52,832 nt of DNA from Bacteroidales bacterium. Its GTDB lineage: Bacteria > Bacteroidota > Bacteroidia > Bacteroidales > UBA932. Shown one piece after another: positions 18,750 through 24,991 of the stretch. The position numbers were made by a program, and so were the translations under genes. Below the pieces are notes generated by a model. The model was not told the origin of the DNA. It did no database searches and saw nothing but the letters and a program-made list of their open reading frames with translations. Numbering within the stretch: the first letter of the stretch is position 1; each line of letters opens with the position of its first letter. The stretch covers positions 1-52,832 of the forward strand of contig JAFUMO010000049.1 in NCBI GenBank assembly GCA_017482565.1, written 5' to 3'.

Positions 18750-19730
18750 CTACAAATTCTCAATCTCTTCAACTGAAAGCCCCGTACATCCGGCAATCAA
18801 TGAAGCCTCAAGGCCTTTCTCTTTCATGGATTTTGCAATCTCAAGACTACGCTCAGCTTTTCCTTCAGCTTTTCCTTCAGCCTTCCCATCAGCATGGCCA
18901 CTGGTGTATCCTTCGCTAATACCCTCCTTCTTCGCAAACCTTATACAGCCCATAGTGTCCATATAGTTCTTGAGATTAGATTCATATCTCATCTGTTCTT
19001 CCTCAGATAGTGATGCCACTTCAGCGGTGTCAAGAACGCCATAGAACATTTCCTTCATCTCTTCCGGCAACCTGGTCTCGGCCACCTCTTTCTTGAGTTC
19101 ATCTATCGTTTTCATACCATCATGCATTTGTTGTAGCAAATATAACAAATATTCATAGTACTTGTTACATTCCCCTATCTTCATCCCCCTCATGCAAGGC
19201 ATCTGTATGAGAATGATATTCAGCTTGTCTGAGAATATCTTTCTGGTATTCACATCACACAACTGGATGTCCCTCCTCAGTACAGGATCCTTTTCATAGT
19301 TGAAATTCATGATGCAGATGGAATATACCTTCTTTATATCCTGGTAATCCCACTCAGAACCTCTCCTGCCCATCCTGTCAACCAGCCTGCAGGTGTAGTA
19401 GATGATTCTCTCGCGCATATTCTCAATGGGCCTGTTCTGTACCTCTATAAGATACTGCTCTCCATTCTTGTCCTTGCATATGAGGTCAAATATGCACTCC
19501 TTCATCTCCTCTGATTCCGGCAATGACTCATTGTTCATGAACTCCACATCCACAATAGGCGATTCCGGCATCAGCATCAGATTAAGGAATCCAATCAGAT
19601 TGGGTTTGTTCTCTTCTGTCCCGAAGAGGAATTTGAAACTCCAATCCATAAAGGGTCTCAACACCTCTCCATCTCTTCGCATCTTGTTGTTCCTGTTGCC
19701 ACAATAGCTGCAAATACTCTTCTTCTCCAT
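18750..19730 (-). CDS. Rpn-family recombination-promoting nuclease (PD-(D/E)XK)
   Basis: A 326-residue protein of the Rpn/YhgA-like (PDDEXK_2) family, once called putative transposases. It is now known to contain DNA endonucleases that promote RecA-independent recombination. The family opening DWSFKFLFGTEENKPNLIGF is at ~29-48. The nuclease core shows FDLICKDKNGEQYLIEVQN (catalytic Asp and the E-x-Q pair, ~84-102). The C-terminal part ends in charged HADGKAEGKAEGKAE repeats encoded by 12-base tandem units. An N-terminal CSYCGNRNNK patch is unusual. No terminal inverted repeats or partner genes were seen, so it is a solitary accessory gene. Confidence 0.88.
   Translation of the reverse strand: MEKKSICSYCGNRNNKMRRDGEVLRPFMDWSFKFLFGTEENKPNLIGFLNLMLMPESPIVDVEFMNNESLPESEEMKECIFDLICKDKNGEQYLIEVQNRPIENMRERIIYYTCRLVDRMGRRGSEWDYQDIKKVYSICIMNFNYEKDPVLRRDIQLCDVNTRKIFSDKLNIILIQMPCMRGMKIGECNKYYEYLLYLLQQMHDGMKTIDELKKEVAETRLPEEMKEMFYGVLDTAEVASLSEEEQMRYESNLKNYMDTMGCIRFAKKEGISEGYTSGHADGKAEGKAEGKAERSLEIAKSMKEKGLEASLIAGCTGLSVEEIENL
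18854..18889. repeat. 12-bp tandem repeat within the Rpn gene
   Basis: Two identical copies of CAGCTTTTCCTT and a diverged third (CAGCCTTCCCAT) encode the G-K-A-E repeats. The unit is a multiple of three, so copy-number change would keep frame. Confidence 0.7.
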
Positions 19731-20199: not shown

Positions 20200-22302
20200 T
20201 TACTCTTCAGTAACAGTCCAGACGTCTGATGCTTCAGTTGAAGTATATCCCTCAGGAACAAAATCCGTACCCTCACCCTCCGCGGTATTATTAGCAGGAT
20301 TGAAGTTCTTGAAAGATCCTCCGGTAACAATAACTTTTGCTTTTCCGGCGTCATACGCATCATCAATGCAATTTATCAGGTAATTCCCATTATAAACAGA
20401 TGTATCCTCAAAATATCCGCCCTTGATATTTGCAGTACCTTTAATTACATTCACCGCCGTAACTGAAGCTTTATATTCACCATCAAGGATAGTTACAGTA
20501 CTACCACCCCTTACTTCTACGGCATAGTCATTATGTTGAGATGCATCAATTTTACCTTCTCCAGATATTGTCACATTTGCACCCCCCTGTACATTAATAA
20601 GAGCTGTTACAACATTCGGTTTGTAAACACCTTTAGTTGTTGATAATTTTTTGCCGTTCAAATGAAGAACAAGATCCTTGTTTGCCACAATTGCCTCATC
20701 AAATGCCATATCTGCAGCAAGGGCAACCTCACCTCCATTCTCAATAGCCGATTTCAATTCATCTACAGTAGATACTGCAACAGCCTTAACTACCTTGTAG
20801 GTATTCTCAGCCACTTTTACAGAAACATAACCGTCTGCCACAAATCCGTTTGGATGAGTCGCATTCCAGTCTGCAGGCTCAGTTCCTGGATTTGCAGGAT
20901 CAAAGTTGATGAATGTACCTCCATATACATTGATAGTTCCCTTATTATCATATACATTCAATGCAGTGTAAACACCTTCTGTCTTGTTTTCAAAGCTTTT
21001 CTTGTCTGCAACCTTTGCCTCATATACACCGCCATAAATATTGACAACGCCATTGCCGCTTGCATAAATTGCAGAAGAGTTGCCATCCAGCGAACCAATA
21101 TAGTTTCCACCATAAATATTTACCTCTGCACCAGTATCTCCTCTTGCCCAAATTACACGGGTAGGGGCCTGTACTGTACCTTCTCCTTTAATTGTAAGCT
21201 TGCCATATACAATAATGCCATCACCAACCTCGTAATCTGTATTCTCTGAATTATTGACAAAATTATTGCCATTCAGATTAATGATAGCCTCATCACCGGC
21301 TGCAACAACAAATGTCTTGTCAACCTCCAAATCAGAATAAAGGTCAACAACACCGCTGAGGAGCTGGTAATGTCCGTCAAAAGCTGGAGTAATTTCCACG
21401 TTGTAGTTGAAAGTACTTGCATACAAATCACCATAGATGTTTGTACGGTAATTCCTCTGAACCGGCACGTTAGCAAAAGTTCTTGAATAAGATTCATTAC
21501 CATCTGTACCTGCTGCAATATCCATGACAACCTCCACGAGATGCTTCTCTGCTCCTGCGAGGACATAGTTCATTGACAGATAATCATAATCACCAGCCAC
21601 TGGAAAATCTGTATCTGTAAGTGAAATCTCACTATATCCGTAGGTTACAGTATTTTTTGTAGCATCATCACTAATTTCTGTCGCTCCTGTTTCCAGATTC
21701 ATTGAAGTAGGGACACCTTTTACAATAACCTTTGCATACTTATACTGTACTCCACCTTTATACTCACCAAGCTCATCCAAATCACCTTTAGTTGTTGCAA
21801 TATTCAACTGCGCAAACGGACGGTACATTTTTACTGTCTCAGTTTTATTGCCGGTAACAGTGAACTCTGGAACGTAAGCATAAAATGCATCATACGCTTC
21901 CTGATTGGCAACCTCAGGACTATATGTCATTGTTTTATTATCCCATGCAATCTCACATGCAGAATTACTGCTCTCTGCCCAGAACAATATGCTGTATTTC
22001 TGGCCATTCAACAATTGGATTGGTACATTTGCCTGAGAGTTCTCATCCATCTTATCAGGATTAACATCTTCTCCATGAATGAGTGAAACTGCATCAACGA
22101 TTTTGCCGCTAGCATCATATACGGCATAGTAAAGTTCTTGAGCAGTTTTACCGTCACCCAAAGCCTTTGTTGCCAAATCAGATGTTGAAAGGCTGAAAGT
22201 TACGATTGACTCTTCGCCATTGGTTTGCCCTGGAGTTTCCTCTTTTGAGCAGGATGCGAGCAGCGTAACGGCTGCCAACATTGTCATAAATAATTTTTTC
22301 AT
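20200..22302 (-). CDS. Fimbrillin-like lipoprotein with two beta-helix modules (putative adhesin)
   Basis: A 700-residue surface lipoprotein. Signal and lipobox are MKKLFMTMLAAVTLLASC (Cys 18). The N-terminal ~310 residues look like the Bacteroidales fimbrillin/DUF6562-type fold (VTFSLSTSDLATKA, then VPVQRNYRTNIYGDLY). The C-terminal ~390 residues consist of two related right-handed beta-helix modules (about 315-505 and 507-700). Each is rich in I-x-G-G-x-Y/F turns, and they end similarly (GGTFINFDPANPGTEP; GGSFKNFNPANNTAEG). Beta-helix tips on fimbriae usually bind host or dietary ligands; that role is inferred. It is last of three genes and followed by a strong terminator. Confidence 0.8.
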   Translation of the reverse strand: MKKLFMTMLAAVTLLASCSKEETPGQTNGEESIVTFSLSTSDLATKALGDGKTAQELYYAVYDASGKIVDAVSLIHGEDVNPDKMDENSQANVPIQLLNGQKYSILFWAESSNSACEIAWDNKTMTYSPEVANQEAYDAFYAYVPEFTVTGNKTETVKMYRPFAQLNIATTKGDLDELGEYKGGVQYKYAKVIVKGVPTSMNLETGATEISDDATKNTVTYGYSEISLTDTDFPVAGDYDYLSMNYVLAGAEKHLVEVVMDIAAGTDGNESYSRTFANVPVQRNYRTNIYGDLYASTFNYNVEITPAFDGHYQLLSGVVDLYSDLEVDKTFVVAAGDEAIINLNGNNFVNNSENTDYEVGDGIIVYGKLTIKGEGTVQAPTRVIWARGDTGAEVNIYGGNYIGSLDGNSSAIYASGNGVVNIYGGVYEAKVADKKSFENKTEGVYTALNVYDNKGTINVYGGTFINFDPANPGTEPADWNATHPNGFVADGYVSVKVAENTYKVVKAVAVSTVDELKSAIENGGEVALAADMAFDEAIVANKDLVLHLNGKKLSTTKGVYKPNVVTALINVQGGANVTISGEGKIDASQHNDYAVEVRGGSTVTILDGEYKASVTAVNVIKGTANIKGGYFEDTSVYNGNYLINCIDDAYDAGKAKVIVTGGSFKNFNPANNTAEGEGTDFVPEGYTSTEASDVWTVTEE

Positions 22303-22333: not shown

Positions 22334-23404
22334 TCAGTATTTGATTTCATAATTATAGGAACCATCAAAGTCCGGCACTATGCCAACTCCGCCCTGGGTG
22401 TCTATGGTGAGGAAGCTGCCCCGCATTATTGAATGCATGCCCCTCTGCACAGGCACTTCTATAGGATTTGTCTCAAACAGAGATTTGCCGGCCGTATCAT
22501 ACATGGCCATAATCATGCTCACAGTGGATTGGATACCGTTTATAAATACATAGTCAAATCCCATGGATACCTCACCGTTATCCAGTTTGGAGAGTTTTGT
22601 TTCAAATGTCACCCCTGTCCTGGCATCATTGGGCTTGTTGGTGAACATGTCAAATGCACATGGCATGAATCCAGTGTAGCTGAACTTTACGGTATATTCC
22701 TGCAGCACATTTGAGACAAGGCTGTCTGCCTGGGAAACATTCAGGTCATCACCCAGTTTTGTATTGTATACCTTCTCAACAAATTCTGCCAGATCGGTAG
22801 CCCTGAATTCAAATTTTGCCAGAGGCCTGTCCATTTCCACATTCAGTATCCTGGCATTTTCAACGGTATCCCTGCTGGCACGGAATGATGCTGTTCCCCT
22901 GTAGGCGTCCCTCATGTCCGTATTGGCCTTATGGGAAGAATGTATTATGATCTCACTGAAATTGTCGGGATTATAAAAATGATGGGATGCTGTTCCTGCA
23001 AGGACAAAATCGGCCCATACGTGGATTACATATTCTCCATCCGGCAGGTCCATCTCCACCTGGGTTTCAACATTGTACATTCCTTTTTCAACCGGAGAGG
23101 TAAAGACATGCTCCCATACATGTTCCCTTGATACTGTTGCGGAAGAATTCTGCCAGGATACGGGAAATACCCTGAGCGTATAGCGCATATCGTACTGTCC
23201 GGTATGGTCAGATATTTTTGTATATGTATAATCCTGCTCCCTTATACCGGTATCAAATTCCAGATTTATGGAATATACCGGCAGTTCCTCACCCTCTGCA
23301 GGAAACTCATGTACATCACATCCTGCCAGCATTGCGCTGCCAAAGAATCCTGCTGTTACGGCAATGAAAGCCAAAAGTCTATATATGTAATTCCCTCTTG
23401 TCAT
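22334..23404 (-). CDS. Fimbrial-locus lipoprotein (VHEFP type), putative FimB/Mfa2-like anchor or minor subunit
   Basis: A 356-residue lipoprotein: hydrophobic segment AFIAVTAGFFGSAMLAGC, lipidation at about Cys 29, then DVHEFPAEGEELPVYSINLE. That opening is shared, from memory, by lipoproteins encoded next to fimbrillins and DUF3575 proteins in gut Bacteroidales. Two beta-rich domains follow, with the pattern RPLAKFEFRATDL, as found in fimbrillin-type folds. The gene overlaps the upstream DUF3575 gene by 4 bases and is 31 bases before the fimbrillin-like gene, so it is part of the same operon. The anchor or minor-subunit role is inferred from position. Confidence 0.7.
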   Translation of the reverse strand: MTRGNYIYRLLAFIAVTAGFFGSAMLAGCDVHEFPAEGEELPVYSINLEFDTGIREQDYTYTKISDHTGQYDMRYTLRVFPVSWQNSSATVSREHVWEHVFTSPVEKGMYNVETQVEMDLPDGEYVIHVWADFVLAGTASHHFYNPDNFSEIIIHSSHKANTDMRDAYRGTASFRASRDTVENARILNVEMDRPLAKFEFRATDLAEFVEKVYNTKLGDDLNVSQADSLVSNVLQEYTVKFSYTGFMPCAFDMFTNKPNDARTGVTFETKLSKLDNGEVSMGFDYVFINGIQSTVSMIMAMYDTAGKSLFETNPIEVPVQRGMHSIMRGSFLTIDTQGGVGIVPDFDGSYNYEIKY

Positions 23405-24138
23405 TTCCTGAACTTATATACCAAGTTTACAGCCAGCTGGTCTATGCCAAAATATGTCTCCTTCCTTGTGCTTTCAAGAGCTCCATCCTTTTCGTTATAA
23501 AACCTGTCATAGTGTAATGGATATACCCCGGCGCCCACTGCAAATTCCACAAACCAGCGCGGGTTTTCCTTCTGTAGGGGCAGCCTGTAGCCCGCAGAAA
23601 CACCTCCTCCTATTGTTGGAGTTTTGCCGTCCTTGTCCTGAATGCGCCATTTGCCGTCAGTAAAGTTGTACCAGCCAAGTCCTGCATGGGCTGCAGCATA
23701 GAATGATGTATATTCCCCGTTGAACCAGTAACGGAGTTCAGGCTGTAGAGTAAAGGTCCTGTATTTGGATGTCTCCCCAAAATAATCAACTGCACTGTAA
23801 TATACCGGCAAGGCAAATGAGAAGCCCCTGCCCAGATCCACCTCGGCATGAATATTTGCAATAAGGAATCCTAATCCCCACAGATTTGTCTTCAGATACC
23901 AGCACCTGCGGGATGGCAAAGGGAGAAGCTCTGCATGGAGCAGATAATTCCAGTCTTCATTTAGGTTGGTAACCTTAATCTGATGGTCTGCACATATCAG
24001 GTGCTTGTGAATATGCTCAGTACTGCTGTTCCACTGAGAACTTCCCTTAGGGAAAAAGACTTCTACAGCCACCTCCTTATGCTGTGACATTGCAGGGGTG
24101 CCTACATGACACATCAGTATGCAAAGAAGCCATGCCAA
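23401..24138 (-). CDS. DUF3575 outer-membrane beta-barrel protein of a fimbrial locus
   Basis: A 245-residue exported protein with signal MAWLLCILMCHVGTPAMSQ. A short periplasmic part is followed by an eight-strand-like barrel starting at YLKTNLWGLGFLIANIHAEV, the usual opening of DUF3575. It contains FTLQPELRYWFNGEY and AAHAGLGWYNF, and ends ...AVNLVYKFRK. Such proteins recur in Bacteroidales Mfa/Fim-type fimbrial operons, where they may help assembly. It is the first gene of the operon. Upstream lies the candidate invertible promoter segment, so expression may be ON/OFF. Confidence 0.82.
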   Translation of the reverse strand: MAWLLCILMCHVGTPAMSQHKEVAVEVFFPKGSSQWNSSTEHIHKHLICADHQIKVTNLNEDWNYLLHAELLPLPSRRCWYLKTNLWGLGFLIANIHAEVDLGRGFSFALPVYYSAVDYFGETSKYRTFTLQPELRYWFNGEYTSFYAAAHAGLGWYNFTDGKWRIQDKDGKTPTIGGGVSAGYRLPLQKENPRWFVEFAVGAGVYPLHYDRFYNEKDGALESTRKETYFGIDQLAVNLVYKFRK

Positions 24139-24167: not shown

Positions 24168-24281
24168 TGTATGAAAAAACGGTGGTTTATTTTTACAGTT
24201 TCTGTTATGATTCTATGCAAATTTTATTTATCTTTGGGGGTACTTTATGAGTGGATGTTTATATGACCGTTTTTCCAAACA
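24168..24281. promoter_or_regulatory. Candidate invertible promoter segment (phase switch) of the fimbria-like operon
   Basis: Inverted arms TGTATGAAAAAACGGT (24168-24183) and ACCGTTTTTCCAAACA (24266-24281) match at 14 of 16 positions and bound an 82-base AT-rich segment. The segment holds TATCTTTG (24229-24236, plus strand), a perfect Bacteroidales -7 element. It points away from the minus-strand operon, toward the 3' end of the recombinase gene. Inversion would place it at about 24213-24220 facing the operon, ~75 bases before the first ATG. A gene for an Mpi-type DNA invertase starts 11 bases beyond the right arm (its 3' end). The arms are short and imperfect, so the switch is a strong hypothesis, not proven. 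Confidence 0.6.
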
Positions 24282-24291
24282 TCCCTATTTT

Positions 24292-24900
24292 TCATTCCCC
24301 CGGTTCATCTGCACGGCCTTTAAGATATCTGTAGAAGGTGTCCCTTGAGACTTCCATTTTCCGGCACACTTCACTTATTGAGTTCCCATCATGGAGCATC
24401 TTGTCTATATCATCACTATGCTCACTTAAGTAATTGAGTTTTGGAGATGAGCCTTTTCTCCTGCCCAACCGGATGCCCTTTGCCTTCTTGGCCGCCAATG
24501 CCTCTTTTGTACGCATGGAGATAAGGTTCCTCTCTATTTCTGCCACCAGCCCAAATGCAAAACAGAGCACCTTGCTGTTTATTGAGTCATCAAAGGTATA
24601 CTTCTCCTTGGTGGTGTAGATTTTTATCCCCTTTTTCAGGCATATTCCCATTATGGACATTATATCAGTAAGCGTCCTGCTCAACCTGGAAATCTCCGTT
24701 ACAATAAGGGTGTCATCCTTCTTCATTCTCCGCAGGATATATCCCAACCTCCTCTCGCTGTTTGCAGTCTTGCCGCTTACCGTTTCCGTGACCCATTTAT
24801 CCACAATGATATTCTTCTGGCTTGTGAAACGTTTGATTTCATCCATCTGGTTATCCGGGTTCTGCCGTCCTGTACTCACTCTAAGATATGCTATTACCAT
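24292..24900 (-). CDS. Mpi-like serine site-specific recombinase (DNA invertase)
   Basis: A 202-residue serine recombinase of the resolvase/invertase type. The catalytic opening is VIAYLRVSTGRQNPDNQ (nucleophile Ser at residue 9), with conserved SRLSRTLTDIMSIM and the helix-E region CFAFGLVAEIERNLISMRTK. The C-terminal DNA-binding part is a Hin-like helix-turn-helix (SISEVCRKMEVSRDTFYRYL). It strongly resembles, from memory, the master DNA invertase Mpi of Bacteroides fragilis, which flips promoters of capsule loci. It lies next to a candidate invertible promoter ahead of a fimbrial operon, so it may act locally, in trans, or both. Length matches the family (~200). No phage or transposon genes accompany it. 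Confidence 0.92.
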   Translation of the reverse strand: MVIAYLRVSTGRQNPDNQMDEIKRFTSQKNIIVDKWVTETVSGKTANSERRLGYILRRMKKDDTLIVTEISRLSRTLTDIMSIMGICLKKGIKIYTTKEKYTFDDSINSKVLCFAFGLVAEIERNLISMRTKEALAAKKAKGIRLGRRKGSSPKLNYLSEHSDDIDKMLHDGNSISEVCRKMEVSRDTFYRYLKGRADEPGE

Positions 24901-24956: not shown

Positions 24957-24991
24957 CAAAAAAAGACAGGCAACGGACCGTTGCCTGTCTT
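24957..24991 (-). terminator. glyA terminator
   Basis: Perfect 12-base stem GACAGGCAACGG/CCGTTGCCTGTC with a one-base centre as written, followed on the minus strand by seven T. It sits 25 bases past the glyA stop. Confidence 0.9.

Follow-up and report, generated by a model that had tools for sequence, protein, structure and literature searches.

A candidate phase-variable promoter, apparently in the OFF orientation, ahead of a fimbria-like DUF3575–DUF6562 operon in a Bacteroidales genome

In a 52,832-bp contig of a Bacteroidales bacterium, analysed over its full length and called the window here, a short inverted repeat encloses an 82-bp segment between a fimbria-like operon and the gene of a small serine recombinase (Table 1). 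Judged from its sequence, this segment is very probably an invertible promoter worked by the adjacent Mpi-like recombinase. An earlier note had proposed a phase-variable promoter lying in the OFF orientation; this stands as the best reading, supported by the gene order of a genome of the same genus (G008) and by an inversion between two further relatives (G081 and G168), where the neighbouring recombinase is of the tyrosine class. For the window, we infer the inversion of the segment, the recombinase responsible, the activity of the promoter, the use of the ATG and the argument on read-through.

We propose the following mechanism. The neighbouring Mpi-like serine recombinase would act in cis on the 82-bp segment and operate it as an invertible switch. 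As assembled, the promoter would be directed to the 3' end of the recombinase gene, away from the operon, and the first gene would be left without an ATG, which together would make the OFF state. Recombination at the two sites would reverse the segment and bring the promoter to 26 nt before an ATG that is in frame and carried by the segment itself; the DUF3575 protein would then begin with a longer signal peptide, MTVFSYRNIAPACRFVLAWLLCILMCHVGTPAMSQ, and the fimbria-like operon would be ON. For read-through mRNA, proper translation may also be restricted in the OFF state by the start-codon step, since transcription of the recombinase gene runs in the direction of the operon and only one weak terminator-like hairpin is called between the two (minus strand, 24152-24131, its T tail being poor).

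Promoter inversion of surface genes, fimbrial ones included, is well known in Bacteroidales. Two aspects would be new if true. First, the switch would also supply a start codon, curbing leaky translation from recombinase read-through. Second, one operon family would keep its inversion switch while the recombinase class and the sites change, which makes it natural material for studying the exchange of recombinases and of their sites. The full combination consists of a double gate (on the promoter and on the sole good start codon), an ATG within the inner half-site such that the recombination site encodes the start of the signal peptide, and a switch replaced across species, serine for tyrosine class, with unrelated sites at the same position; we put it forward tentatively, as falling just short of an even chance.

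Table 1. Features of the window around the candidate switch (positions in the window; interpretations are putative)
Feature	Position	Strand	Description
Third operon gene	20200..22302	-	700 aa; weak DUF6562 match; homologous to the Mfa2-matching G008 protein
DUF6562 protein, second operon gene	22334..23404	-	1.4e-78
DUF3575 protein, first operon gene	23401..24138	-	245 aa, counted from TTG
Left arm (gene side)	24168..24183	+	TGTATGAAAAAACGGT; 14/16 against right arm
Proposed left recombination site	24177..24188	+	AAACG-GT-GGTTT; 9/12 to AAACGTACGTTT, best match in the gap
Inner segment, proposed to invert	24184..24265	.	82 bp; both orientations read in silico
Bacteroidales-type -7 element TATCTTTG	24229..24236	+	consensus match; directed away from operon (OFF)
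Proposed right recombination site	24261..24272	-	AAACG-GT-CATAT; 8/12 to AAACGTACGTTT, same register
ATG beside right arm	24263..24265	+	in flipped orientation, in frame at head of DUF3575 gene
Right arm (invertase side)	24266..24281	-	TGTTTGGAAAAACGGT on minus strand
Serine recombinase, Mpi-like	24292..24900	-	202 aa; Resolvase + HTH_7
Terminator-like hairpin	24963..24991	-	after upstream serine hydroxymethyltransferase gene, before invertase

The candidate switch in the window

The arms of the repeat are 16 nt each, complementary at 14 of 16 positions and separated by 82 nt, and the right arm starts 11 nt from the stop codon of the invertase gene. The earlier note had described the repeat ahead of a minus-strand operon and an Mpi-type invertase gene 11 bases away, and both are present as it stated. 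When the 153-bp gap between the operon's TTG and the recombinase stop was shuffled with its dinucleotides preserved, a 14/16 repeat with 30-300 nt spacing arose in 6 of 2000 shuffles, and 23 of 2000 reached a looser repeat score of 10 or more. The repeat is short and imperfect, with A-rich arms. This composition and the looser score would suit a chance inverted repeat, with the recombinase acting elsewhere and the operon served by an ordinary promoter, as would the finding that among 49 recombinase loci scanned, several of them cut by contig ends, a repeat lying just downstream can be related to a switch in only three (L001, L005 and L040). We nonetheless hold a chance repeat to be decidedly unlikely: the same layout recurs in G008, the match to a recombination site is in register with both arms, and half of the examined homologous operons have a repeat ahead of them.

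Searches with the arms and the segment add detail. At zero or one mismatch, the arm pattern TGTWTGRAAAAACGGT matches only the two arms in the source genome, a MAG that is 89% complete and in which divergent sites could be missed; the arm search as a whole gave 4 and 4 hits against 12 and 9 for its reversed control, so matches at two mismatches are meaningless. No reversed copy of the segment was seen. Viral contigs gave no match to a single pattern designed to catch the left junction whichever way the segment lies, and our genome comparison set, with one genome per species, is hardly able to reveal a reversed copy.

TAnnTTTG is the consensus of the Bacteroidales -7 element, and TATCTTTG is its sole occurrence in the segment with both strands counted. 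The earlier note was right that the only perfect element faces away from the operon and that the -33 element is weak, there being no TTG 19-21 nt ahead of TATCTTTG. Taken alone, the -7 element is weak evidence for a promoter, because 24% of segment shuffles (1212 of 5000) have a TAnnTTTG on one strand or the other; the exact TATCTTTG appeared in 102 of another 5000. What the inverted repeats enclose is a segment bearing a putative promoter, which consists of a -7 match with a weak -33 element. A sigma-70 scan returned no promoter, the sigma-70 model being uninformative for this phylum.

The neighbouring enzyme has the architecture of a small serine recombinase, with a resolvase domain, a C-terminal HTH and Ser/Arg motifs, and both PF00239 and PF02796 score above their cutoffs. 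Its best solved relatives are the DNA-invertase chains 4m6f and 3uj3, aligned via the RVST and RL.R motifs, which we take to hold the catalytic Ser and Arg residues; 3uj3 has A in place of S in the motif equivalent to RVST. We call the enzyme only Mpi-like because its score of 264.2 bits (263.5 in a repeat run) against NF009949, the master DNA invertase Mpi family, lies below the 272-bit cutoff. A scan of genome contigs with the recombinase as query found one distant locus, and a DNA search of a phage collection returned two records, at 9% coverage, located under the recombinase. The same genome holds a second recombinase, 53% identical, which passes the NF009949 cutoff with 325.5 bits (G000:C52, L058); its 10546-bp contig is identical to its own reverse complement and is probably an assembly artefact.

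Mpi recognizes sites of the ARACGTWCGT type. The earlier note had found no clear match between the arms and the Mpi repeat core; it overlooked a resemblance to AAACGTACGTTT that becomes visible once the comparison is centred on the inner end of the arms. The right site's score of 8/12 is equalled at one other place in the gap, 12 of 52821 window positions score 9/12 to AAACGTACGTTT, and a pair of sites this good arose in 76 of 5000 shuffles. The G008 gap holds one 9/12 site and fails the same two-site test. By sequence, the window's recombination site is likely to be AAACG-GT-nnnnn, centred on the inner end of the 16-nt arms.

Divergence of these sites bears on another explanation, in which a former switch is now locked OFF by diverged arms or sites and the operon is either silent or fed by recombinase read-through. 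The arms do differ at 2 of 16 positions, the inner half-sites differ from each other, and the DUF3575 protein falls about 160 residues short of the 414-aa homologue in G008. However, the recombinase and operon genes are open frames and both arm differences fall outside the shared core AAAAACGGT, and we consider a locked switch unlikely.

Going by homology, it is reasonable to name the operon fimbria-like: its third protein shares 28% identity over 295 residues (2e-22) with the Mfa2-matching protein of G008. The three proteins of the window operon themselves gave no Mfa2 hit, and DUF6562 has no match among solved structures. The literature searched contains little on DUF3575 and nothing on DUF6562. 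The window's DUF3575 protein, at 245 aa against 414 aa in G008, is without the roughly 160 residues ahead of the shared C-terminal part. Behind the operon lies a gene for an Rpn/PDDEXK-family nuclease (18750-19730).

How the first gene is started depends on the orientation of the segment. As assembled, the DUF3575 frame extends upstream through the arm to a TAA inside the segment, and between that TAA and TTG 24138 there is no ATG, GTG or TTG. In the flipped orientation, an in-frame ATG comes to lie directly beside the arm, 26 nt after the -7 element, and opens MTVFSYRNIAPACRFVLAWLLCILMCHVGTPAMSQ; a further in-frame GTG lies four codons upstream of it. The earlier note had placed the flipped promoter about 75 bases before the first gene, which is accurate if translation starts at TTG 24138 and inaccurate if it starts at the ATG brought by the flip. 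The putative signal peptide has 19 residues and no K or R if begun at the TTG; begun at the ATG, it has 35 residues and a positive charge from two K or R. The signal peptides of relatives, compared by eye, start upstream of the position equivalent to the TTG, where the window in its OFF state has no in-frame ATG, GTG or TTG. Of 5000 shuffles, 667 (13%) place an in-frame ATG at that exact codon and 1819 (36%) have one somewhere in the segment; because of the former count, the case for the start codon is built on the signal peptide and the absent alternative start, not on rarity. That inversion supplies the start codon of the DUF3575 gene is, on this evidence, an evenly balanced proposition.

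The segment might instead invert as a switch of the promoter only, with translation beginning at TTG 24138 or another fixed start and the ATG present by chance. The two shuffle counts speak for this possibility, and so do relatives: the arm of G008 carries an in-frame stop, which puts the start outside the segment and sets G008 apart from the ATG-bringing type, and in G038 and G073 the ATG that opens a good signal peptide is outside the arms. It sits poorly with a TTG-started signal peptide that has no K or R, and with relatives whose signal peptides begin, by eye, upstream of the TTG, where the OFF frame offers no ATG, GTG or TTG. We regard a promoter-only switch as a serious possibility, though one we lean against.

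Homologous operons in related genomes

Homologues of the window's DUF6562 protein occur at 21 places in 20 of 398 family genomes. Eighteen places could be examined; in the other three (G018, G221 and G133), the contig stops short of the region of interest. Among the 18, only the window and G008 have a window-type serine recombinase beside the operon. The G008 order is recombinase, inverted repeat, DUF3575, DUF6562 and the Mfa2-matching gene; its repeat is an exact 13-bp one, 99 bp apart, with a score reached in 6 of 2000 shuffles of its gap, and its TATATTTG is likewise directed away from the operon. In G325, a related repeat with the core CGTTGGAT overlaps the end of its recombinase, and the 9-kb contig has no DUF3575 or DUF6562 match.

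An inverted repeat stands ahead of DUF3575 at nine of the 18 places: the window, G008, G038, G016, G081, G168 (C15), G053, G073 and G033. Six of these (G038, G016, G081, G168, G053 and G073) have arms of the TCTCTT-n-AAGAGA type, with small variation. No repeat was counted at G011, G041, G055, G360, G342, G260, G246, G069 and G168 C21, where the uncounted ones were a single TCTCTT-type palindrome with an AT-rich 22/26 repeat farther up in G041 and repeats of 10-11 nt in G260 and G168 C21.

Comparison of G081 with G168 provides direct evidence that this operon family is switched by inversion. On either side the two are collinear, at 91.8% over 3042 bp and at 91.6% over 5611 bp, whereas the 157-bp repeat-bounded block between these flanks is 98.7% identical on the opposite strand. 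The block lies ahead of homologous DUF3575–DUF6562 operons in both (L111 5030-5184 in G081:C22, and L112 in G168:C15), and the promoter-like TAATTTTA, which matches TAnnTTTG at 7 of 8 positions, faces the gene in G168 and the opposite way in G081. A tyrosine recombinase, with Pfam Phage_integrase and SAM-like domains above cutoff, is encoded just upstream of the repeat in G081, G168, G053 and G016. G011 has one too, but with another gene between and no repeat, and the gene upstream in G038 encodes a Dabb-domain protein, not a recombinase. Because the observed inversion adjoins a tyrosine recombinase and has unrelated TCTCTT-AAGAGA arms, it shows the habit of the operon and not the action of the window's enzyme.

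The remaining repeat, in G033 (L096 5271-5437, G033:C12), matches at 16 of 17 positions (CGATAAATCGTTCATTT), has its arms 133 bp apart and lies between two divergent DUF3575 genes. It encloses TATCTTTG, facing away from the DUF6562 operon, and the serine orthologue of this genome is on another contig. Recombinase and DUF6562 occur together in nine genomes against about 1.9 expected from 37/398 and 20/398, a comparison drawn by eye that assumes the same 398 genomes. We considered, and set aside, action of the recombinase in trans on DUF6562 operons to which it is not linked: three of the nine genomes (G053, G081 and G168) have a tyrosine recombinase beside the operon, and the co-occurrence count is confounded by kinship. 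G033, with its unlinked orthologue and AAACGAACG-like arms, is the one case that fits action in trans.

Comparison with known invertible promoters

The Mpi-controlled capsule promoters of Bacteroides fragilis share with the window an Mpi-type serine recombinase, a promoter enclosed by inverted repeats and a surface-structure operon downstream. Mpi inverts at least thirteen scattered regions (PMC5903667). In the window, by contrast, recombinase and switch are adjacent, with no third copy of the arms at zero or one mismatch in the source genome; the recombinase scores below the NCBI cutoff for Mpi, and the segment seems to bring a start codon. The Tsr19/BF2766 type of tyrosine-recombinase promoters in Bacteroides is alike in inverting promoters for surface genes, and one Bacteroides tyrosine recombinase has a near and a distant site (PMC4747536). 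A tyrosine recombinase precedes repeat and homologous operon in G081, G168, G053 and G016, whereas the recombinase in that place of the window is an unrelated one, of the serine class, and the arms are unrelated too.

The E. coli fim switch uses FimB and FimE, which are of the tyrosine type. Its invertible element measures 314 bp (PMC5903667). As a small invertible fimbrial promoter, the window switch would work like it, and we claim no homology between the two.

Invertons that intersect a gene are termed partial intergenic. Of 1837 invertons, 952 are reported to intersect a CDS (PMC11892184). The window resembles these in that inversion would change a coding sequence; it differs in that it is predicted to gain a start codon, and 16 further residues of signal peptide, together with a promoter. 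Phase-variable Bacteroidota fimbriae are already in print: the FimB/Mfa2 gene family is reported to be upregulated through invertons when cultures are surface-attached, and the portions of that article available here make no mention of DUF3575/DUF6562 operons, of recombinase exchange or of a start codon brought by inversion (PMC11892184). Neither an operon of the window type nor a start codon brought by promoter inversion is described in the available portions of PMC11892184, PMC4747536, PMC5903667, PMC11868660, PMC3090145 and PMC10994844. In the literature searched, which for this purpose means titles and abstracts and supports no claim of wider absence, we recognized no report of a start codon brought by inversion.

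Serine recombinase orthologues and their sites

Orthologous serine invertases of about 65% identity occur in a third genus, g22, where they lie 8.8-12.0 kb from clusters of AAACGTACGTTT-like sites. Eight regions were fetched and six scanned; five of the six (L150, L151, L153, L154 and L155) have at least two sites with TAnnTTTG between them, and L152 has one weak site. The cluster is located between two divergent DUF3575 genes in L150, L151, L153 and L155, and in L154 only the right-hand gene was detected. The promoter between the sites falls at 10702-10898 in L150, 7968-8192 in L153 and 12655-12865 in L155, and inversion there would select one or the other of two surface operons. In all five regions the promoter faces the operon farther from the recombinase, so no inversion by the serine orthologues is visible among them. 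A wider g22 search (13 of 250 genomes) found such sites in 5 of 14 scanned loci, from four genomes, and none within 900 bp in the other nine. The contig G280:C34 starts one base before a AAACGTACGTTT-like site, as an assembly broken at a switch would.

Within the family, some contigs also end close to the orthologous recombinase. In 9 of 24 loci (L034, L038, L045, L046, L049, L050, L051, L052 and L056, among L033-L056), the contig ends less than 500 bp after the recombinase, as if the assembly broke at something repeated or invertible. Two g5 genomes, at loci L038 and L051, carry 25-nt inverted repeats at similar positions. The repeat of L038 spans 161-281 nt after the recombinase stop, with 71 nt between its arms, and that of L051 spans 200-319 nt, with 70 nt.
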